Shown here one piece after another: positions 7,869 to 45,826 of a DNA stretch of 45,826 nt. The notes under the pieces are model-generated. The model saw only the letters and a program-made list of their open reading frames with translations. It had not been told where the DNA came from and searched no databases. How positions within the stretch are numbered: position 1 is the first letter of the stretch; every line of letters starts with the position of its first letter. Source of the stretch: a virus. The DNA is taken from positions 1 through 45,826 of IMG/VR virus record IMGVR_UViG_3300013233_000561. One strand, given 5' to 3'. A program made the translations under genes and the position numbers.

Positions 7869-7885
7869 AGTTATATCCCCCTTTT

Positions 7886-11756: not shown

Positions 11757-13739
11757 TCATTTTTTGTAGTGTACTCCTTCCCAGACATCCGCTGTTATAG
11801 GCCAGTCTTCAGCCCAGTATTCCTTAACTTCTAACAGGCTTTTAAACTCTTCCTTACTTCCAAAGTTAAGGGGTACTTCTGACACTATCTCATCATATAC
11901 GGTTAAAATTATATGGTATCCCGCAGCCTCAGCCCTAAACATTGCTGGAACTAGCAGTTCTCTACTAACGGCCTGTGTGGCATTCTCAGCGAGTTTGCCC
12001 CCGTATGTACCAACACGTCTCCATTGGCCCTCCTTTTGAGCCATGTATGTTAGCTGTAGCCGTGGGGTGCAACCACAGGTTCCGTTTCCACAACTATCTT
12101 CAGTTATGGGCTTGTGCCAGGGGGGCATATTCGTTCTGAGTTCTGGGCTAAAATACCATAGACGCTTTCCATTCACAAGTACCATAGATAACCATTGATC
12201 TACAGTCTGGAATCCTATTTTGTAATTCACTTGAAAGAGCTTTCCTGGATTACGAACTGCTGATATAGAAGCCCACTCTAAATCAGACCAGAACTGTACC
12301 GTAGCGGGGTGCTCACTCCTCCATGTATTTTTAATATCATTTATTTCTTCGTCCGTGTGCCTGTCAGACCTGTCGAAGTTTCTCCATGCCCCAATAGAGC
12401 CCTGGTACCCAAATGCTAGCTCGCCTGTTTTTCCATCCTGCCTTTCTCTAGGATGCGTTTCTTTTGTTACAGTACCTTCCGGGAGATTATATATTTTGTC
12501 AGCAGTTAACTCATATATTTTTTTACCCGATGCAAAGGCGTCTATCTTCCACTGTTCACCTGCGAGACATGCTAATATGATAGCTTCAACAGAAACGAAG
12601 TCCCCCGCTATTATTTTGTTACCGGATGCAGGGATAATCCAATGCCTGGACGCCTTACTCACAGCGTCCGTAGAGTCACCATACAGAGCATCTAGCCACT
12701 CGCAACTGCCCAGCATAATATCCCTCACAAGCTGCTCTGGAGGAACGTCATCGAAGCCACGAGTTAGGTTTAATGGTTGGAACCCAGAGCCAGTCCAACG
12801 ACCGGTTGACGCCCCATGGTACCTGGTTTGAAACCTGGCCCTCCAATCCTTCCCCCTCTGGCGAAGCATAGCTTCTAGTTTTTTTGTACTAGCCTTGTTT
12901 ACTTTACATCTTATTTCCAAGGAGCGTATTACATTAGAATTATTTCCAGATGCAATATCACCTTCTAGAGTTTCTTCTACAGTTTCAGCCTTTAAGTCTG
13001 GTAGTTCTAAGCCATTAGCCGCTAACCAGCTAAGATACTTGTCTCTTTGGGTTGGGTTCAATCCTGTTATACTCTTAAATTCAAGGGTCAATTCTTCCGC
13101 TCTCTGCTGTACTATTGACCTAGCTGTCTTTATACCAGCACTGTCCAGCATAAGGCCGCGCATGTTTATAACACGGTCTAGATCAAACACCTCTTGCTCC
13201 CTGTCTGGGAGATCTCCTAAATAATTACCAATGTTTCTTTCTAGCTCAACATCTATTTCGCAGTATCTTATCCACTTTTTAAGATCTTCCGGAGGGATAA
13301 CTAATTTGGAAGTTTTTAAGTAAAGCTTTGAATACTTAGTTATGAGGCGACCCCCTTCTGGATCCTTACTCCCAAATCCTAAAACTTGAGATAGCTTATC
13401 AAGCCTTTGTGGGAGTGAGTAGTATGATGCAACAGCCATGGTATCTCGCCATGCGTATTCTGTAGGGTCAGGCCAATTGTACTTCCTGGAAAGAACATTG
13501 GTCCATATGGATAGTTCAAAAGCGTAGTTGTGCGCTTCTATCTTCTCCCCATCGCGCAGAAGTGAGAATAGGGGGTATAGACTTTCCATACTGCCCCCTG
13601 GTACCCAAGATTTTATTTCCCCGTCATCTACTGCCCAACAGACACAAATTACATCTGTGCTAGGATGTTCAGAGTAAGCCCACTGCCCAACTTTTCTAAG
13701 GTCAGATTCGCTTTTTGTTTCTAAATCTAGAGTTATCAT
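11757..13739 (-). CDS. Family A DNA polymerase with 3'-5' exonuclease
   Basis: 660 residues. The exonuclease domain shows Asp5-X-Glu7, AHNYAFE (69-75) and YCEID (159-163). The polymerase domain shows HGASTGRWTGSGFQPLNL (308-325), motif A with Asp380 and Glu385 (GDFVSVEA), motif B as RQDGKTGELAFGYQG (433-447) and motif C as LTVYDE (612-617; the usual His is Tyr). All catalytic acids are present, so it should be an active proofreading replicase. There is no 5'-nuclease domain. A Cys-containing insert (SCGNGTCGC, about 549-557) is unusual. GGGGG precedes the ATG. The long leader upstream is strongly structured. Confidence 0.95.
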   Translation of the reverse strand: MITLDLETKSESDLRKVGQWAYSEHPSTDVICVCWAVDDGEIKSWVPGGSMESLYPLFSLLRDGEKIEAHNYAFELSIWTNVLSRKYNWPDPTEYAWRDTMAVASYYSLPQRLDKLSQVLGFGSKDPEGGRLITKYSKLYLKTSKLVIPPEDLKKWIRYCEIDVELERNIGNYLGDLPDREQEVFDLDRVINMRGLMLDSAGIKTARSIVQQRAEELTLEFKSITGLNPTQRDKYLSWLAANGLELPDLKAETVEETLEGDIASGNNSNVIRSLEIRCKVNKASTKKLEAMLRQRGKDWRARFQTRYHGASTGRWTGSGFQPLNLTRGFDDVPPEQLVRDIMLGSCEWLDALYGDSTDAVSKASRHWIIPASGNKIIAGDFVSVEAIILACLAGEQWKIDAFASGKKIYELTADKIYNLPEGTVTKETHPRERQDGKTGELAFGYQGSIGAWRNFDRSDRHTDEEINDIKNTWRSEHPATVQFWSDLEWASISAVRNPGKLFQVNYKIGFQTVDQWLSMVLVNGKRLWYFSPELRTNMPPWHKPITEDSCGNGTCGCTPRLQLTYMAQKEGQWRRVGTYGGKLAENATQAVSRELLVPAMFRAEAAGYHIILTVYDEIVSEVPLNFGSKEEFKSLLEVKEYWAEDWPITADVWEGVHYKK

Positions 13740-13885: not shown

Positions 13886-14515
13886 CTACCCCCTTCTCCT
13901 TCTTGACCCGCTGGACGTAGTTTTAGCACCAGCTACGGGGGTGAATACCTTGCTGTAATCGGAGCTTGATCCCAGGGGTTCACCATCCCTGGTTTTTTGA
14001 AAGGCGTTAAGGTATATCTTTAGGGCTTTCTCCCCCTTGTTAGTCTGGTATTCAGATATATTTCCAGCGAGTATTCCATAGCAACCTGGATATACTTTAG
14101 CCTGGTCAACAGGCTCTATTGTTTCCACATCAGGACCATAAACTGCAATTCCACCTGGAGCATTTTGTCCCATTTTATTGAATTGAGTATTTGAACGAAT
14201 TACTAATTTTCCTACGTAAGCAGTGCCTTCCTTGCCCTTTTGCTCGCGCCTCGCCGCTAAAGAATCACCTTCAATAACCGGGCTAACGATAACCCCATTA
14301 TTGTAATCATCCTCAGCAGAGTTACCCCATTTAGCTATGGCAAAATTTACGATATGGTCCTCAGCTTCAATAATATCATCCGGGTCGTAGGCAATCTCGA
14401 TCTTATACTGTGGGGTAGCTTTATCGTCATACTTATCCTTCTCAAACAAAGCACAATTTATAACCCTTCCTTCCGGGAAAACGATACTGCTAAGTTCCTG
14501 GGTGTCTTGACTCAT
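13886..14515 (-). CDS. Single-stranded DNA-binding protein, DUF2815 type
   Basis: 209 residues. The pattern GRVINCALFEKDKYDDKATPQYKIE-like, then WGNSAEDDYNNGVI, GKLVIRSNTQF and YPGCYGILAGNISEYQ matches the phage DUF2815 family, OB-fold proteins related to T7 gp2.5-type ssDNA-binding proteins. It should coat replication intermediates and coordinate the polymerase, nuclease and primase-helicase encoded nearby. The C-terminus is basic and Ser/Gly-rich (SSGSRRRRG) and lacks the acidic tail common to SSBs. Its ATG overlaps the preceding small gene's stop. Confidence 0.8.
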   Translation of the reverse strand: MSQDTQELSSIVFPEGRVINCALFEKDKYDDKATPQYKIEIAYDPDDIIEAEDHIVNFAIAKWGNSAEDDYNNGVIVSPVIEGDSLAARREQKGKEGTAYVGKLVIRSNTQFNKMGQNAPGGIAVYGPDVETIEPVDQAKVYPGCYGILAGNISEYQTNKGEKALKIYLNAFQKTRDGEPLGSSSDYSKVFTPVAGAKTTSSGSRRRRG

Positions 14516-19805: not shown

Positions 19806-21692
19806 ATGTCAAATAAATTGTTGGAGCAAGCGCTAAAATATGCCGAGAAGGGATGGGCTATTTTCCCTTGTAGGGCAGACAAAACGCCGTATACAAAGTC
19901 GGGGGTTTTAGAATCTAGTTCGAACCCTGATACAATTGAGGGTTGGTGGAGTAAGTGGCCTAATGCTAATATCGCTTTGGATGTAGGAAGCGCTGGCATG
20001 ATGGTTATAGACTTAGACCCAGGCCACAGTATAAGCGAGCTGGAAAGTAATATAGGAAAGTTACCGGATACTAACCTTATACAAAAAACGCCAAGAGGGG
20101 GGCGGCACCTGTTCTATGAGTTAGGCGAGGGAGAGGTAGTACCACAGTCATCCTCTAAGTTAGCCCCTAAAGTAGATGTTCGATCTTTTCACTCCTACGT
20201 TCTTCTATACCCCTCAAGAACAAAGGATGGAGCCTATTCCTGGAGCCACCAGGACAAGCCCGCTTTTCGATCTGATAAAATGGTTGAAATGTCTTCAGCT
20301 AGAGTTAAAAGTGAGGACCGGGATAATTGGATTATAGAGCCAGACTTACCGCAAAATGTAGCCGCCGCTACAAAATGGCTGGTAGAGAGCGCTAAAGTAG
20401 CCATAGAGGGACAAGGTGGCGACGCTATGACTTACGCTACGGCGGCTCACTTAAAGAGCTACGGCATATCTGAGGCCCTCGCCCTTGACCTTCTATGGGA
20501 TAACTGGAACCTGCGTTGCTCACCACCCTGGGATATACAGGAGCTAGAGATAAAAGTCAGGAATGGGTACTCTTATAACACCAGCCCCCCTGGTAATATA
20601 ACAGAAGGATATAGAGAAGCCCTAAACAAAAATTTATTCAAGCCGGTTGAAGTACCGTCAGAGTCAGGTTCGGAAGTACACTCAGGAAGATTCAGGTTTA
20701 TTAGCCGAGACAATATGGAGCTGATAAAAAACCCTGAAATGCTTATTGATGACTTTCTACCGGTTGAATCATACGCTTTGATAGTTGGGGCGCCCGGAAC
20801 CTTTAAAACCTTCGTTGCCCTCGACATCGCTTTATCAATAGCTACCGGGGGAGGGTTCCCCTGGGACGGCCCGTGGCCCGTAATAAATAACTCCGGGCCG
20901 GTTTTATTTTGCGCTGGGGAGGGTAGGGCTAACTTAAACTTGAGGGTAAAAGCTTGGGAGAACAGGCACTATGGGGGTAATAAGGTTGAGGGCTTCACCC
21001 TAGCGGACCCGGTTCCTTTTATCGGGGAAGATATTGAGCCATTTTTAGAAGGAGCCATGGCTTTAAACAAACGGTATAAACTTGTGGTCTTGGATACAGT
21101 TAGCCGGGCCATGCAGGGGGTAAATGAGAATGCTCAGGAACACGCCTCAAACTTTACTAAAATGGCAGAATCAATTCAGAGAAGGCTTGGCGCGACTGTG
21201 CTCGGTCTACATCACACTGGTCATGGAGAAGCTTCCAGGGCCAGGGGAAGCTCTGTTTTCGGCGCGGATGCGGATACAATTATCAAGCTCGACAGAAAGC
21301 AGGGGAAAAGAGTTATAAGTCTTACCATGCTAAAGCAAAAAGACCTTGCCCAATGGGATAGCAAAAAATGGGTAAGACTAGATACAGTATCGTTAGGCGA
21401 TAGTATAAGTAACTTGGCGTGTGTAGCTTCCGAACAGGAGGTCAGGGATAACAACAGCACTTCCGCAATAGTGGCTATAGTTGATGAATCTGTAAGCATT
21501 AAGCTAGCAAGCATCCCTGGCAGGGAATGGACCACTAAAGGACTAGCGGAAGCTTTAGCTACCCAGGACGATATGGGTATAGGTTCGAGTATGCTGAGGC
21601 AAAAGTATTTAAAGGAAATTCGAGAAAATTCAGAATGTAAATCCGCTAAGTATTACGATGCGGATACAGCAAAATGGAGGTTTAAAAGGTAG
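19806..21692 (+). CDS. Bifunctional primase-polymerase / RepA-type helicase
   Basis: 628 residues in two parts. The N-terminal Prim-Pol domain shows VIDLD (67-71), TPRGGRH (95-101) and KVDVRSFHSYVLLYPS (122-137). The C-terminal RecA-like helicase shows GAPGTFKT (328-335, the relaxed Walker A typical of RepA/AAA_25), LVVLD (426-430), and HHTGHG (469-474) followed by ARGSSVFGADAD. It should lay down primers and unwind the fork, taking the place of T7 gp4. It is the only rightward gene between 7.3 and 27.0 kb apart from the transposase remnant, and it ends at a bidirectional terminator. Confidence 0.93.
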   Translation: MSNKLLEQALKYAEKGWAIFPCRADKTPYTKSGVLESSSNPDTIEGWWSKWPNANIALDVGSAGMMVIDLDPGHSISELESNIGKLPDTNLIQKTPRGGRHLFYELGEGEVVPQSSSKLAPKVDVRSFHSYVLLYPSRTKDGAYSWSHQDKPAFRSDKMVEMSSARVKSEDRDNWIIEPDLPQNVAAATKWLVESAKVAIEGQGGDAMTYATAAHLKSYGISEALALDLLWDNWNLRCSPPWDIQELEIKVRNGYSYNTSPPGNITEGYREALNKNLFKPVEVPSESGSEVHSGRFRFISRDNMELIKNPEMLIDDFLPVESYALIVGAPGTFKTFVALDIALSIATGGGFPWDGPWPVINNSGPVLFCAGEGRANLNLRVKAWENRHYGGNKVEGFTLADPVPFIGEDIEPFLEGAMALNKRYKLVVLDTVSRAMQGVNENAQEHASNFTKMAESIQRRLGATVLGLHHTGHGEASRARGSSVFGADADTIIKLDRKQGKRVISLTMLKQKDLAQWDSKKWVRLDTVSLGDSISNLACVASEQEVRDNNSTSAIVAIVDESVSIKLASIPGREWTTKGLAEALATQDDMGIGSSMLRQKYLKEIRENSECKSAKYYDADTAKWRFKR

Positions 21693-22581: not shown

Positions 22582-23046
22582 TTAAGCGTAACGATCCCCA
22601 GATATACAATCTTTTCTAGAGGCACGCGCTTTTCCATGCACACGCGCTTTTCCAATGACAAGAGCATAATCGTAAACTATGGCATTTTCATAAACACAAG
22701 CATTCCCACAAACACAAGCATTCCCAAAAATGTGAGCTTCTCCGTAAACACGAGCTTTTTCAGAAACAATAGCATTACCCCAAATTAAAGCTTTTCCATA
22801 AACACGAGCTTTTTCAGAAACAATAGCATTACCCCAAATTAAAGCTTTTCCATAAACACGAGCTTTTCCGTAAACACGAGCTTTTCCGTAAACCCAGGCT
22901 TCATCGTAAACACAGGCACCTTTAGCTACATGAGCACTAGGGGAAACATAAGCTGTATCAGCCACCCAACCCCCCATTGTACCATCTTGGTTTATATGCC
23001 TGGACGCCGGTACTTCACCTTTTCCATCTTTAAAATCATAAACCAT
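22582..23046 (-). CDS. Hexapeptide-repeat (beta-helix) protein, short paralogue
   Basis: 154 residues from the ATG at 23046, which is preceded by GGAGG and begins MVYDFKDGKGEVPASRHI. Longer upstream extensions of the frame are shadows of the paralogue. After a GGWVADTAYVSPSAHV lead-in come about 18 six-residue repeats (VYGKAR, IWGNAI, VSEKAR, IFGNAC), the period of left-handed beta-helix proteins. No transferase active site is visible. A near-identical 36-bp pair coding IWGNAIVSEKAR shows recent duplication. The protein probably forms a rigid rod or oligomerising scaffold. The start overlaps the paralogue's stop by 11 bases. Confidence 0.8.
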   Translation of the reverse strand: MVYDFKDGKGEVPASRHINQDGTMGGWVADTAYVSPSAHVAKGACVYDEAWVYGKARVYGKARVYGKALIWGNAIVSEKARVYGKALIWGNAIVSEKARVYGEAHIFGNACVCGNACVYENAIVYDYALVIGKARVHGKARASRKDCISGDRYA

Positions 23047-23848
23047 TTTTGTTACCTCCAGAAATATGTTTATTACGAGAAATTGTATCATTCCCGGAAA
23101 CGATAGCCTTCCCGTAAACACGAGCATTCCCAAAAACTCTAGAGAGTACGAAAACATGAGCATTCCCGTAAACCTCAGCGTTCCCAAAAATACGAGCTTC
23201 CCCAAAAACATGAGCCTTCCCGTAAATACGGGTGTCCGTAAGTATACAAGCATACCCGTAAACATGGGCTTCGCCACAAACTAAAGCATTCCCGTAAACA
23301 CGAGCTTTTCCGTAAACACGAGCATTCCCGTAAACACGAGCTTTTCCGTAAACACGAGCTTTTCCGTAAACCCAGGCTTCATCGTAAACCCAGGCTTCAT
23401 CGTAAACCCAAGCGTTCCCAAAAATGCGAGCTTCTCCAAAAATGCGAGCTTTCCCATAAACACAAGCTTTCTCAAAAACATGAGCCTTCCCATAAACACG
23501 AGCGTCCCCGAAAACACAAGCATTCCCAAAAACGCAAGCATGTCCATAAACACGAGTATCCGTGAGTATACGAGCATCCCCGTAAACCCAGGCTTCATCG
23601 TAAACACAAGCGTTCCCAAAAATGCGAGCTTTCCCATAAACACAAGCGTTCCCAAAAATGCGAGCTTTCCCATAAACACAAGCGTCCATAGAAATGCGAG
23701 CTTTCCCATAAACACAAGCGTCCATAGAAATATGAGCACTAGGGGAAACATAAGATGTATCAGCTACCCAGCCTCCGATTGTACCGTCGGGGTTTATATG
23801 CCGGGCCGCCGGTACTTCACCTTTTCCATCTTTAAAATCATAATTCAT
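23036..23848 (-). CDS. Hexapeptide-repeat (beta-helix) protein, long paralogue
   Basis: 270 residues from the ATG at 23848 (MNYDFKDGKGEVPAARHI), preceded by GAGGG. The first 45 residues match the shorter paralogue almost residue for residue. About 33 hexapeptide units follow (CVYGKAR, RIFGNA, WVYDEA, RILTDTRVYGHA), then a short Asn/Lys/Gly-rich tail. The units have aliphatic residues at position i, Gly/Asp at i+2 and Ala at i+4, as expected for stacked beta-helix coils. Related YDFKDGKG-type proteins occur in other phages; their function is not established. Possible roles are a structural rod, an ice-like or surface-binding protein, or a host-factor trap. Confidence 0.8.
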   Translation of the reverse strand: MNYDFKDGKGEVPAARHINPDGTIGGWVADTSYVSPSAHISMDACVYGKARISMDACVYGKARIFGNACVYGKARIFGNACVYDEAWVYGDARILTDTRVYGHACVFGNACVFGDARVYGKAHVFEKACVYGKARIFGEARIFGNAWVYDEAWVYDEAWVYGKARVYGKARVYGNARVYGKARVYGNALVCGEAHVYGYACILTDTRIYGKAHVFGEARIFGNAEVYGNAHVFVLSRVFGNARVYGKAIVSGNDTISRNKHISGGNKNGL

Positions 23849-24110
23849 TTTTGTTACCCTCTTTAGTGTAAGGTTTAAATACTGGTATTCCATCATCAAG
23901 GGAAATTAATCCAATATTATATGATTCATATTTATCAGTAGACCCAGATGTGATAGTTATTTGAAAAAAGTCTTCGCCGCTATGGTGATAGCCTTCAATC
24001 GCCACCCCTAAATTCCATCCTCTAGTGTGACTATTACTACCACTATCCTTTGAACCACACCGAGTTGCTTCTCCTTTATCGCCTTGTATACTAGCATAAA
24101 AATGTGACAT
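23838..24110 (-). CDS. Small phage-family protein (GEATRCGSKDSG motif)
   Basis: 90 residues from the ATG at 24110 (MSHFYASIQGDKGEATRCG), preceded by GAGG. The sequence GEATRCGSKDSGSNSHTRGWNLGV is typical of a widespread small phage protein family of unknown function; the C-terminal half is beta-rich (DFFQITITSGSTDKY). The stop overlaps the ATG of the long beta-helix gene, so it leads that pair. The family assignment is from memory of the motif. Confidence 0.7.
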   Translation of the reverse strand: MSHFYASIQGDKGEATRCGSKDSGSNSHTRGWNLGVAIEGYHHSGEDFFQITITSGSTDKYESYNIGLISLDDGIPVFKPYTKEGNKNEL

Positions 24111-25637: not shown

Positions 25638-25664
25638 TTCAAACCCCCCTAGCGGTTCTAAATT
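25636..25664. repeat. 29-bp dispersed repeat, copy B
   Basis: Matches 8562-8590 in 28 of 29 positions, same orientation. Here the leftward reading supplies the last codons of the 58-residue gene and the ribosome site of the next gene, instead of the internal HD-protein codons seen in copy A. Confidence 0.9.
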
Positions 25665-25815
25665 GTTTAAAATCGTTTACCTCAACTAAACCTCTTTTAG
25701 CAAGGCTAAATATTATAGTTTTAGAATCATCCGCAAAGGTATGCCATCCTAAGCACCGATCTATAAAGTTTAAAGCATGTTTCTGCCGTCTCCCAAGTCT
25801 TGTGGTATTTCGCAT
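25639..25815 (-). CDS. Small basic leader gene of the accessory unit
   Basis: 58 residues from the ATG at 25815, chosen because AAGGAG lies about eight bases upstream and a strong promoter ends just beyond it; the longer frame to 25878 would start inside the promoter. The protein MRNTTRLGRRQKHALNFIDR continues with TFADDSKTIIFSLAKRGLVEV, a pattern like a small winged-helix (H-A-L-N...I-F-S-L-A-K-R-G-L-V). It could be a DNA-binding regulator. The C-terminal eight residues come from the dispersed repeat. Confidence 0.65.
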   Translation of the reverse strand: MRNTTRLGRRQKHALNFIDRCLGWHTFADDSKTIIFSLAKRGLVEVNDFKQFRTARGV

Positions 25816-25850
25816 TTTTTTTCTCCTTGTTAAAGTAAAGTATAAAGGCA

Positions 25851-25878
25851 AGTATACTCCGGTATTTATAGCTGTCAA
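25851..25878 (-). promoter_or_regulatory. Near-consensus sigma-70 promoter, leftward
   Basis: On the minus strand TTGACA (25878-25873) and TATACT (25856-25851) are 16 bases apart, reading into the leftward accessory unit whose first ATG is at 25815. This is the best-matching promoter on this strand and should be recognised by the host polymerase immediately after infection. Confidence 0.85.
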
Positions 25879-25910
25879 GCTTTTTTTTGATTTAATTAAA
25901 TATTTAATTC

Positions 25911-26020
25911 TAATAGTATATAAATCAATGGTTTATAATTAATTGTACCCGTGACAACCGTGACAATGGCGAGCCAATTTCATTGGCACGGATAATAGTA
26001 TATAAATCAATGGTTTATAA
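25911..26020. repeat. 28-bp direct repeat pair
   Basis: Bases 25911-25938 and 25993-26020 are identical over 28 positions (beginning TAATAGTATATAAATCAATG). A third partial copy of the TATAAATCAATG core is at 26109-26120. The palindrome ATTAAATATTTAAT also occurs twice, at 25895-25908 and 26085-26098, so this stretch has a duplicated architecture. Confidence 0.95.
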
Positions 26021-26173
26021 ATAACGTGCCAATGGTGTGCCAATGCCAATATAGCCGTGCCAATCGGCAGACAATGCCAACATGATTAAATATTTAATTA
26101 TAAACCCTTATAAATCAATGCCCCTTGTGCCAATGCTAAGACAATTAAGGCTATATTGGCAATATGTGCCAAT
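25982..26173. repeat. Cluster of eight TGCCAAT/ATTGGCA motifs (iteron-like)
   Basis: Exact TGCCAAT starts at 26027, 26038, 26044, 26058, 26128 and 26167 on the plus strand, and its complement ATTGGCA starts at 25982 and 26155. Near-matches lie at 25969 and 26075. The pair 26155-26161/26167-26173 forms a 7-bp palindrome with a 5-base centre. This many copies in 192 bases suggests binding sites for a phage or host initiator or regulator. Confidence 0.85.
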
Positions 26174-26247
26174 GTAGGGTATATATACGTAGTATATACC
26201 CACATGCAATGCTAGGTATATACTACGTATATATACCCTACATTGGC
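26168..26247. repeat. Perfect 33-bp inverted repeat with 14-base loop
   Basis: Arms 26168-26200 and 26215-26247 are perfect complements over all 33 positions, beginning GCCAATGTAGGG and rich in TATATA and TACGTA steps. The loop is CACATGCAATGCTA. It would extrude as a cruciform or fold as a long hairpin when single-stranded. There is no protelomerase gene, so a hairpin telomere is unlikely; origin or second-strand start functions are more plausible. Confidence 0.97.
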
Positions 26248-26382
26248 TTATTTAAATTGACCGGATTAGGTAGGATTATTTACCCGATGATTTATTGCGA
26301 GCCAACTAGGCTCCTACCCGCGCAAGCTTGCGCCCCCACAGCGCACGCTATAATCGCATAACCTCAATAACATATTTCATTC

Positions 26383-26447
26383 AATTAATCCCTCGAATTA
26401 ATCCCTCGAATTAATCCCTCGAATTAATCCCTCGAATTAATCCCTCG
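26383..26447. repeat. Five tandem 13-bp repeats (AATTAATCCCTCG)
   Basis: Five perfect consecutive copies, with a sixth broken copy (AATTAAATTG) directly after. The mixed AT-rich and CCCTC composition resembles origin iterons or binding sites; they lie about 135 bases from the long hairpin. Confidence 0.97.
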
Positions 26448-26485
26448 AATTAAATTGCAGGTATAATCATTCGTGAGTTCGACAC

Positions 26486-26537
26486 CGTTATGTTTTCAAT
26501 TTCATAACGCCCGTTATGTTTTCGATTTCATAACGCC
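26486..26537. promoter_or_regulatory. Two adjacent palindromic operator-like sites
   Basis: Two 26-bp units differing at one base are joined head to tail. Each contains CGTTATG and CATAACG, a 7-bp perfect dyad with a 10-base centre. Paired dyads of this kind typically bind dimeric regulators. An 11-bp inverted repeat (26471-26481 with 26632-26642, TCGTGAGTTCG) brackets them. Confidence 0.75.
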
Positions 26538-26740
26538 CAAATCTTAATCTCATGGGCCGACTTCGGGGGTGCCCCCCCGTTTTCTCCGCTAGGGGGCTAT
26601 TGTACGGTAAAAAAAAATTTCAATTATTTAGCGAACTCACGAGTTTACAATATAAAGAACTCATATGATAACCTCTACATCAGGGGAAACTTAATATAGG
26701 ATAAATACGGAAATAAATTGTAGGAAAAGGATGTACTAAT

Positions 26741-26770
26741 AAATACTAATATGTACTAACATTAGTATTT
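26741..26770. promoter_or_regulatory. 10-bp dyad upstream of the rightward promoter
   Basis: AAATACTAAT and ATTAGTATTT are separated by 10 bases, with additional TACTAA copies before and between. It sits 50 bases upstream of the rightward promoter at 26821, a suitable place for an activator or repressor. Confidence 0.6.
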
Positions 26771-26820
26771 GGAAAAAAAAGTTGTAATTTGAAAACCTAG
26801 AGTATACCAACCCTGACAAT

Positions 26821-26849
26821 TTGACATATCCCATGCTTCAATGTATACT
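26821..26849 (+). promoter_or_regulatory. Near-consensus sigma-70 promoter, rightward
   Basis: TTGACA (26821-26826) and TATACT (26844-26849) are 17 bases apart, reading toward the holin and the late block. The two hexamers are the same as in the leftward promoter at 25851-25878. An unpaired 160-base leader follows before the first gene at 27014. Confidence 0.87.
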
Positions 26850-27013
26850 CAGATAATTAACTTGGGACAAATTACCATGAACATAAAAAATGGTATGGGT
26901 ATCCTGAGAATTAACCAGCGGCAACTCTCCCTCCCCGCTGTTTAGGTCCAGGTGTGGTGGCCTTGTAAAAAACTTCAAATCCACACCACGAATAATTTAG
27001 TAGGAGGAAAAAA

Positions 27014-28291: not shown

Positions 28292-28843
28292 ATGGGTAGA
28301 AAAAAAATATCTGATAGAGAAGAAATTGCAATAAGGGAATTGTTCGATAACAAATTCACCAGCAAAAGGAAGGCGCTGGATGCCGCTGGGTATTCTAAGG
28401 AAAATAGCGTCGGAAAGGTGTTTAACAAACCAACAGTAAAGGCTGAGATAGAAATCCGTCAAAAAAATTTGGCGAGGAAGCATAACATAAACCAGGATCA
28501 GATAGTTGACGAACTGGTTAAAATAGGATTCAGTGGAGTGGGGGACTTGATTGAAGTAAATAAAAACGGCGACGCCACTTTAGATTTTAAAAAGCTTACA
28601 CCAGCACATCGAGCCGGGATCAAGTCCTTCACTACTAAAGTTTACACAGATGGGAAGGGACAGGATGCTAGGGAGGTTAAAGAAACAAAGGTAGAATTCA
28701 TTAGTAAACTGTCAGCTTTAGACTACTTGAGCAAACACCTGGGTCTGTTCGAGAAAGATAATGATGATGCGAAGGGTTTAATAGAAGCTCTTGTATCCGC
28801 CAGGAAAAGAGTCAGAATAGGTATCCAGATAGATGGCGAGTAA
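28292..28843 (+). CDS. terS: Terminase small subunit
   Basis: 183 residues. The N-terminal DNA-binding half reads REEIAIRELFDNKFTSKRKALDAAGYSKENSVGKVF-like (residues 8-43), a helix-turn-helix typical of Terminase_2 proteins, then VKAEIEIRQKNLARK and a central oligomerisation region. It recognises the packaging site and loads the large subunit. It overlaps the large subunit gene by 11 bases, the usual arrangement. The packaging mode (headful or site-specific) cannot be inferred from it. Confidence 0.88.
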   Translation: MGRKKISDREEIAIRELFDNKFTSKRKALDAAGYSKENSVGKVFNKPTVKAEIEIRQKNLARKHNINQDQIVDELVKIGFSGVGDLIEVNKNGDATLDFKKLTPAHRAGIKSFTTKVYTDGKGQDAREVKETKVEFISKLSALDYLSKHLGLFEKDNDDAKGLIEALVSARKRVRIGIQIDGE

Positions 28844-44035: not shown

Positions 44036-45826
44036 TGCCAGAACTAGACCCGCTTGAGCAAGCGCTTAAAGAAAATTCTACGCAAGAAAAGTCAATTGAA
44101 GATTCTTTTCTAAATATCACAGGGTTAACAAACGAACAAGTTGAGCAAGCGCTTAATGGCCCGCCTAATAAAGTAGATGTAAGTAAAAACCCTATTCTGA
44201 ATGAGACTGGGCTGTCGGACTCAGATATTAAAAACGCTCTTGCAGAAAAGCAGGACAGCGACAACGCCCTATTATCATCTCTAGATCAGGCCCTTCCAAT
44301 ACCCCCGGATGAGTCAGCTAAACTCAGGGGGTTATCCAGGAAAACAGGTTTTCCTGAAGAGGTAGTAGAGTCTGATAAAGCTACATTTGAGCAGCAAGCT
44401 AGAAAGCAGGAAATAGTAGACTCAGTGGGATCTGATAGTCCAGTTACTAAGAAGCTCATGTCGGACCCTCTCTTCGCCAGCATGAGTCATGACGAAGTGG
44501 AAGCAATTTCCAATATAGAAAAAACTTCCAAAAGTTTGACAATAGGTAGAGCGTTTGGGTTAGGTGTAGACTCCCTTCAAATAGGACTGTATGGTGGTGT
44601 GGAAGCTTTTAGCAGATTTTTAGGTGCAGATACTCTAGCTGACGTTTCCGCCGAAGGAAGAAAATTTAATGAAAAGCAATCTGCTGACGCATCCGCGCAA
44701 GCACAAAAGTTTCTAGCAATAAAGACAGTAGGGGATGCGCTAGACTTTGTAAAAACTGGTTTGCCACAGGTCGCTCCATCTATAGCTGCTATGGCTTCTG
44801 CTGGATATGGAGCTGGGGCTATAGCAACTGCTCTTGGTGTTGTAGCGCTAGCACCAGAAGCCATAGCTACACTAACTGTTCTTTCTTTTGCTTGGTTATT
44901 AGGCGCTGGTGGAATACAAAGCCAAATACAACAAGAGTCACCTGGGGTAAAGGGTACTGAAGACGTTTCAATAGTTGGTGGTCTTGGTGTAGGACTGCTA
45001 GATTCTGTATTTCCGGGTAAGGCGGCATCATCATTTATTTCTCAACTAACAAAAAAAGGTCTTTTACGTTCTATTCCAGAACTAGCTGGTCGAGCTGCAA
45101 TTTCGGGGGCTAAAGGAGCGCCACTAGAAGGATTGACTGAGGGATCCCAAAATGTCGTGCAGGATATAGCTTCTAGTAAAGCTACAGGAAACCCTTTAGA
45201 TGTTAAAAAAACAGTTATTGGAGCCATAGAATCCGGTGCTTTGGGCCTACTTGGTGGGGCTAGTGCTGGCCCTGTACTGAGCGTTGTAAACGATGTAGCT
45301 TCAGCTAGAAAAGCTGTCGTTAATGAAGAGGCAATGGCTGAAATATCCAAGCAAGTTAGGGATCTGAAGCTATCTAAAAGGGATGTTGAATCTGCTATAA
45401 AACTTGAGATGGATATTCTTAAGGAGCAGAATGTAGAAGAAATTTCTATACCTGTAGATAAGCTAGTTGAGTTTTCACAATTATCTGAAGAGAAGACTAG
45501 CGAGCAAGTTATTGAAGAGATGGGTTTGACGGAAAGGGTTGAGCAAGCTAAAGTTACGAATGGAGACGTTAGACTTTCTACACGACAGTATTCTGAATTT
45601 TTCTTATTATCTAAAAACTATGATTCTGTTAAAAAGCATATTCGCATGGGCAATGGGGAGATGACTTCTGCGGAGGCTGAAGAGTTTGAAACATCCGGGC
45701 TGCCAGAAGCTTTAGACAAGTTAGAACAGGCGCAAGTGGAAGCTGATGCTGAGATTACCCTAACTAAACAGGCGCCAGTCACTATAGAAGATATTAAAAG
45801 TAATTTAGAAAAGATAGATGAAGCAC
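44035..45826 (+). CDS. Giant internal virion (gp16-like) protein, N-terminal part
   Basis: The ATG at 44035 overlaps the stop of the preceding internal virion gene (TAATG), showing translational coupling. The frame is open to the window end and continues at base 1 to the stop at 3803, about 1,849 codons in all. The N-terminus contains short acidic repeats of the type EQALKENS / EQALNGPP / IKNALAEK, which look like capsid- or portal-docking repeats, although that role is a guess. Residues near 243-290 are strongly hydrophobic (Ala/Gly/Val-rich) and a second Gly-rich hydrophobic patch follows near residue 405, consistent with a protein that must enter or cross a membrane during DNA ejection. 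The family assignment rests on size and synteny with T7 genes 14-15-16. Confidence 0.85.
   Translation, partial: MPELDPLEQALKENSTQEKSIEDSFLNITGLTNEQVEQALNGPPNKVDVSKNPILNETGLSDSDIKNALAEKQDSDNALLSSLDQALPIPPDESAKLRGLSRKTGFPEEVVESDKATFEQQARKQEIVDSVGSDSPVTKKLMSDPLFASMSHDEVEAISNIEKTSKSLTIGRAFGLGVDSLQIGLYGGVEAFSRFLGADTLADVSAEGRKFNEKQSADASAQAQKFLAIKTVGDALDFVKTGLPQVAPSIAAMASAGYGAGAIATALGVVALAPEAIATLTVLSFAWLLGAGGIQSQIQQESPGVKGTEDVSIVGGLGVGLLDSVFPGKAASSFISQLTKKGLLRSIPELAGRAAISGAKGAPLEGLTEGSQNVVQDIASSKATGNPLDVKKTVIGAIESGALGLLGGASAGPVLSVVNDVASARKAVVNEEAMAEISKQVRDLKLSKRDVESAIKLEMDILKEQNVEEISIPVDKLVEFSQLSEEKTSEQVIEEMGLTERVEQAKVTNGDVRLSTRQYSEFFLLSKNYDSVKKHIRMGNGEMTSAEAEEFETSGLPEALDKLEQAQVEADAEITLTKQAPVTIEDIKSNLEKIDEA
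45782..45826. repeat. Terminal direct repeat, right copy (circular join)
   Basis: Exact copy of bases 1-45. Removing one copy leaves about 45,781 unique bases and joins the gene that starts at 44035 to the frame that ends at 3803 without a frameshift or stop. Confidence 0.95.

Follow-up and report, generated by a model that had tools for sequence, protein, structure and literature searches.

What purpose might a perfect 33-bp inverted repeat serve in a phage genome, when it lies among short repeated boxes in DNA that encodes no recognizable protein? The window, by which we mean the whole stretch of 45,826 nucleotides analysed here, begins and ends with the same exact 45-bp direct repeat (1-45 and 45782-45826), and this contig is therefore probably a complete genome of ~45.8 kb closed in assembly. 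Its gene content is that of a podovirus-like phage, with a replication side (Prim-Pol/RepA-type helicase, family A polymerase, Gp2.5-like SSB, DUF2800/PD-(D/E)XK exonuclease, SNF2-like helicase and a clamp-like protein) followed by terminase genes, which start at 28292, and by head-tail adaptor, head and tail genes. An earlier note on this DNA had proposed that the inverted repeat and the boxes beside it form a replication origin.

A dyad and a box array between divergent promoters

The dyad, the boxes and a direct repeat all lie in ~1 kb of non-coding DNA between divergent sigma70-like promoters, both identified by sequence match only, and stop codons are abundant in all six reading frames from 25880 to 26880. 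The features of this gap are as follows.

25851 to 25878, minus strand: sigma70-like promoter (TTGACA-16-TATACT), reading leftward into the early/replication genes
25911 to 25942, plus strand: AT-rich direct repeat, copy 1 (28 bp exact, 32 bp at 97%)
25952 to 26173, plus strand: main box array, with 11 degenerate plus-strand boxes at 25952-26145, another plus-strand box at 26167 and inverted boxes at 25982 and 26155
25993 to 26024, plus strand: AT-rich direct repeat, copy 2
26168 to 26200, plus strand: left arm of the perfect 33-bp inverted repeat, starting inside the TGCCAAT box at 26167-26173
26177 to 26201, no strand assigned: imperfect palindrome GGGTATATATACGTAGTATATACCC within the left arm, with an inverted copy at 26214-26238
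26215 to 26247, minus strand: right arm of the inverted repeat, ending in an inverted box (26242-26248)
26383 to 26453, plus strand: 13-bp tandem array, 5.5 units of AATTAATCCCTCG
26485 to 26538, plus strand: 26-bp tandem of two units, with inverted unit ends (CGTTATG...CATAACG)
26564 to 26579: G+C hairpin followed by T, terminator-like
26821 to 26849, plus strand: sigma70-like promoter (TTGACA-17-TATACT), reading rightward to the holin-like and terminase genes

The arms of the dyad, 33 nt each, are 100% complementary and enclose a 14-nt loop. The earlier note had described this repeat exactly to the base, and its other anatomical claims were recovered as well, namely eight TGCCAAT boxes (all eight within 25982-26173), one of them at the left end of the dyad, and a 28-bp direct repeat (25911-25938 and 25993-26020, exact over 28 bp and extending to 32 nt at 97%). 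The dyad is by far the longest perfect one in the 45.8-kb window, the runner-up being 14 bp, and the single-stranded form of the region has a folding energy of -35.2 kcal/mol (z = -12.1), a value equalled by 0 of 200 shuffled sequences. Each arm is itself the imperfect palindrome GGGTATATATACGTAGTATATACCC, found at these two sites only, and most of the stem consists of sequence other than boxes. A search of Rfam with the region returned no match.

The boxes are distinguished by their clustering. Across the whole window, TGCCAAT shows no overall excess (11 copies versus 6.9 +/- 2.9 expected); 8 of the 11 nevertheless fall within 25982-26173 (p about 5e-13). The degenerate form [TA]G[AC]CAA[TC] occurs 16 times in 25900-26300, where its density elsewhere in the window predicts 0.23. 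Four pairs of boxes are spaced exactly 11 bp apart (25961/25972, 26027/26038, 26058/26069 and 26128/26139), each pair forming a 19-nt composite repeat, D2, and helical phasing in the window is partial, given that gaps of 6, 14 and 28 bp are present too. Boxes occur in both orientations, TGCCAAT reading ATTGGCA on the other strand. As in iteron-type origins, several direct copies of a short word are thus gathered in one non-coding place, and the same holds for the relatives described below.

Directly downstream of the leftward promoter, and preceded by a good ribosome site, lies a 59-aa basic ORF (25639-25818, minus strand). Its product resembles a small winged-helix protein by eye, and a Pfam search gave no match.

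Box arrays beside Prim-Pol genes in relatives

No relative of the window was found at the DNA level, and searches with the dyad sequence gave no DNA match among phages, nor an exact one in viral_contigs. The comparison rests on protein relatives, specifically IMG/VR viruses found through their Prim-Pol/RepA-helicase gene (42-56% identity over the whole protein), several of which share the terminase and polymerase too. Arrays were detected by a local scan for word enrichment followed by inspection. Nearly every relative with enough flanking sequence carries one array of short boxes near the Prim-Pol gene, written in a word of its own; the lineage words include TTACCAAC, ATCCCAA, GGCCAAC, GTGCCAGCC, GTATCACGAC and others. 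By locus, the array words are the following.

ATCCCAA: L003
TACCAAC: L006 and L018 (near-identical words)
GGCCAAC: L016
ACGCCAA: L011
GCCAGC: L007
TACCAT: L022
ATCACGA: L012, L014, L019 and L021
TTACAGT: L017
GCACAG: L013
Further words: L065, L067, L074 and L076

Box spacing in these relatives peaks at 10-12 bp, and the longer steps (mostly 19-23, 42-43 and 53-55 bp) correspond to whole helical turns. A core, CCAA, is shared by five of ten lineage words (p = 0.003); it is weak in a looser alignment of 14 lineages (p = 0.02), and the TTGG core is not universal among the relatives. In five lineages (L003, L005/L006/L008, L016/L020, L018 and L022) blocks of boxes face each other and so produce long perfect dyads, whereas in L007 and L017 all boxes lie on one strand and no long dyad is formed. 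The exact dyad sequence occurs in this phage alone and dyads are not universal; what is conserved is therefore the box array and not the hairpin, the dyad of the window being one form of a more general feature.

The analogous yet different dyads at arrays in independent contigs from other samples also bear on whether the inverted repeat could mark a site of telomere resolution by a protelomerase or have arisen as an artefact of assembly. Perfect long inverted repeats do occur at telomere-resolution sites and in chimeric assemblies. Here, by contrast, the arms are separated by an asymmetric loop of 14 nt, the 45-bp end repeat closes the contig at another place, and, unlike in an N15-type telomere, no protelomerase was found among those window proteins that were scanned with Pfam/PHROGs, a result that agrees with the earlier note on this point. 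We regard either explanation as extremely improbable.

A second kind of palindrome, distinct from the arrays, was observed in some of the same relatives. The 16-bp palindrome GGTATCACGTGATACC (variants GGGATCACGTGATCCC and GGTCTCACGTGAGACC) is scattered every 1-4 kb within and between genes in the L011 contig (G007), L022 (G017), L013 (G009), L018 (G014), L003 and L006, with 23 copies in 44.6 kb, 25 in 34.9 kb, and 16, 15, 8 and 10 copies, respectively. The window has no copy and the L012/L019/L021 clade almost none; in L006 and L018, the space between the facing box blocks contains one copy. This palindrome may act in the manner of a stoperator, a centromere or an RNA hairpin.

Arrays extend to distant elements, comprising Prim-Pol/RepA helicase genes at ~30% identity together with bacterial genome contigs (one of which, L088, shows 63% identity in the helicase) and the annotated phage record MW202867 (L105). 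In L079, L081, L082, L085, L086, L088, L089 and L091 an array follows the gene on its 3' side at a distance of no more than a few hundred bases, and in MW202867 the first box, at 7880, comes directly after the annotated Prim-Pol/helicase gene, whose end is at 7878. When each locus was represented by its single most enriched word cluster, 14 of 36 distinct loci had this cluster in the 0-1500-bp interval 3' of the gene, versus 3.4 expected (p about 2e-6); the interval was picked after some arrays had been seen. This test is noisy in that the top cluster is sometimes a coding repeat elsewhere, as in the window, where such a repeat lies at 23.1-23.7 kb. Part of the distant clade (L029-L031, L033 and L035) showed no strong array. 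The array of the window lies 4.3 kb 3' of its Prim-Pol gene, unlike the immediately 3' arrays of divergent relatives.

The gene context of the arrays varies between relatives, while their nearness to Prim-Pol stays, and it is against this pattern that two further explanations have to be weighed. Boxes and dyad could be operators at which a phage or host transcription factor controls the divergent promoters at 25851-25878 (minus) and 26821-26849 (plus) in an early/late switch. The array does lie between two strong outward-reading promoters, each dyad arm is palindromic like the site of a dimer, and the 59-aa ORF could encode a small DNA-binding protein. This ORF, however, has no family match, about 75 bp separate the first box from the closer promoter hexamer and more than 570 bp the dyad from the farther one, each genome has a single cluster instead of sites at several promoters, and promoter context is not conserved at the arrays 3' of Prim-Pol in L013, L017, L074, L079-L089 and L105. 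An operator function therefore seems unlikely to us. Less likely still is a packaging (pac/cos), partition or incompatibility site whose boxes would be targets of the small terminase or of a segregation protein. Other systems do use iteron-like arrays for partition or as pac sites, and the terminase genes begin about 2 kb rightward (28292), but the arrays of relatives stay near Prim-Pol, often 3' of it and sometimes several kb from the terminase, and the circularly closed assembly of the window, with its 45-bp end repeat, yields no packaging start.

Since analogous single arrays with other words recur near Prim-Pol in relatives, a replication origin is the best-supported reading, and we consider it likely that the box array and dyad at 25.9-26.3 kb constitute the origin of this phage. 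The proposal of the earlier note is upheld in this respect; its emphasis on the dyad as the key element is not, given a dyad sequence unique to the window and arrays without a dyad in L007 and L017.

Cumulative GC skew, which had been suggested as a check, neither confirms nor refutes an origin here. The minimum of the window, at 26,989, is beside the array. Nevertheless, the skew of the window records coding orientation, because Prim-Pol, the lone plus-strand gene in the minus-strand arm, has the same coding-strand skew (+0.143) as other genes (0.167 for minus-strand genes; 0.147 and 0.126 for plus-strand genes). Among relatives, the minimum coincides with the array in G004, G017, L006 and G014 (if circular) and lies away from it in some others, including G008, G015 and G016. 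With the coding strand explaining the minimum in the window and these three genomes disagreeing, GC skew was set aside as evidence for an origin.

The fused Prim-Pol helicase and known replication systems

Three replication proteins of the window are relevant to how such an origin would work.

11757 to 13739, minus strand: family A DNA polymerase, the proposed elongating polymerase
13886 to 14515, minus strand: Gp2.5/Enc34-type single-stranded DNA-binding protein
19806 to 21692, plus strand: Prim-Pol/RepA-type hexameric helicase, the proposed initiator, with a predicted C-terminal winged-helix-like domain (residues 544-628)

The last of these combines AEP Prim-Pol (PF09250, E 1.3e-32) and helicase (AAA_25, E 6e-32) domains in one protein. 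The helicase domain has a RecA fold, and its nearest solved relative, by both sequence and fold, is RSF1010 RepA; it is thus RSF1010 RepA-like and not of superfamily 3. A PDB profile search gave no match between the window protein and NrSPol. For residues 544-628, AlphaFold2 predicts with fair confidence a winged-helix-like layout (helix, helix, helix, hairpin), for which the winged-helix matches of Foldseek are weak (best E 0.66). Box-word divergence tracks the divergence of all Prim-Pol domains about equally (Mantel correlation, r 0.28-0.39), and the use of this correlation to single out the C-terminal domain as the reader of the boxes was dropped, every domain correlating alike.

The window resembles several characterized systems in part. 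At RSF1010 oriV, RepA helicase, RepC-bound iterons and RepB' primase at the ssiA/ssiB hairpins offer a parallel in the RepA-like hexameric helicase and in the combination of repeats with inverted repeats. The iterons of RSF1010 are ~20 bp long, whereas the boxes here are ~8 bp with a spacing of 10-12 bp. RSF1010 replication uses three proteins (PMC4234260), whereas primase and helicase are fused here. In satellite phage P4, the alpha protein unites primase, helicase and a C-terminal winged-helix binding domain and acts at short repeats (PMC4234260); the architecture of the window protein would be similar, but the P4 primase is of Toprim type, and the winged helix is here a prediction with weak fold matches.

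The pRN1 plasmid family, with its ORF904 Prim-Pol, shares with the window an AEP Prim-Pol joined to a helicase and a non-coding inverted-repeat element near the replication gene. Replication of pRN1 depends on a stem-loop just 3' of the Prim-Pol gene, an isolated 100-bp piece carrying it restores replication of a deletion construct, and across the family the structure is kept while the sequence diverges (PMC4234260). A stem-loop has likewise been proposed 3' of the replication gene in Bordetella phage BIP-1/BPP-1, and the Bbp16-like head protein of the window is a loose link to BPP-1-like podoviruses. pRN1 and BIP-1, on the other hand, use an SF3 helicase and lack iterons (PMC4234260), in contrast to the RSF1010 RepA-like helicase of the window, where an iteron-like box array is conserved, the dyad is optional and the array lies 4.3 kb from the gene.

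Phage NrS-1 provides a parallel at the level of the site, having a Prim-Pol with ring helicase (NrSPol) and a TTGG-core sequence on both strands. Its Prim-Pol starts DNA primer-free at 5'-TTTGGTTA-3' (PMC8718748), which occurs in one copy per strand, both central in the genome (PMC7102993) and proposed as the origin. The ATTGGCA boxes of the window likewise place a TTGG-containing sequence on both strands and towards the middle of the genome, a likeness in the core that is suggestive but not proof, and NrS-1 has two copies of an 8-nt site where the window has about 16 partly phased boxes.

A candidate origin, probably bound by the phage's own Prim-Pol

By analogy with pRN1 and NrS-1, recruitment of Prim-Pol to the region is plausible, and the boxes are probably bound by the phage's own Prim-Pol-helicase. 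We infer that DNA synthesis would start at the array in the following order. The array, with boxes often paired one helical turn apart and in both orientations, would be the recognition site of an initiator, most likely the Prim-Pol-RepA-helicase acting through its C-terminal winged-helix-like and/or helix-bundle domain. Such binding would lead to loading of the hexameric helicase and to opening of the dyad and the AT-rich DNA beside it, after which the Prim-Pol domain would start primers on the exposed strands, and family A polymerase and SSB would extend them.

A broader and rather doubtful proposal is that Prim-Pol-RepA-helicase phages and prophage-like elements share an undescribed class of origin. 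Such origins would consist of ~8-bp boxes that have a diverging GTRCCA/TGGYAC-like core and are arrayed in helical phase, often inverted. The word would co-diverge with the fused initiator, and one protein would read the box in two ways, as a landing site while the DNA is duplex and as the start of primer-free synthesis once the strand is exposed. Prim-Pol phage origins are little characterized, and beyond the genetic work on pRN1, the related suggestion for BIP-1 and the primer site of NrS-1, a literature search found no described origin of this kind. If the array of the window is indeed an origin, a phased box array near a Prim-Pol-helicase gene would predict the origin in many uncultivated phages and prophages, the arrays would be ready substrates for tests of primer-free replication, and pairs of initiator and word would help to work out how such initiators recognize DNA.

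Two further observations concern genes between Prim-Pol and the array. Those at 22582-23899 contain 18-bp periodic DNA repeats, one of them matching YdcK beta-solenoid repeats (PF18836), and akin periodic repeats occur in L013 (about 9.0-9.3 kb) and L076 (about 5.5-5.9 kb). The protein encoded at 24379-24993 matches the central domain of the DNA polymerase III beta-clamp (PF02767) and a RusA-like PHROG, and is possibly a phage sliding clamp.
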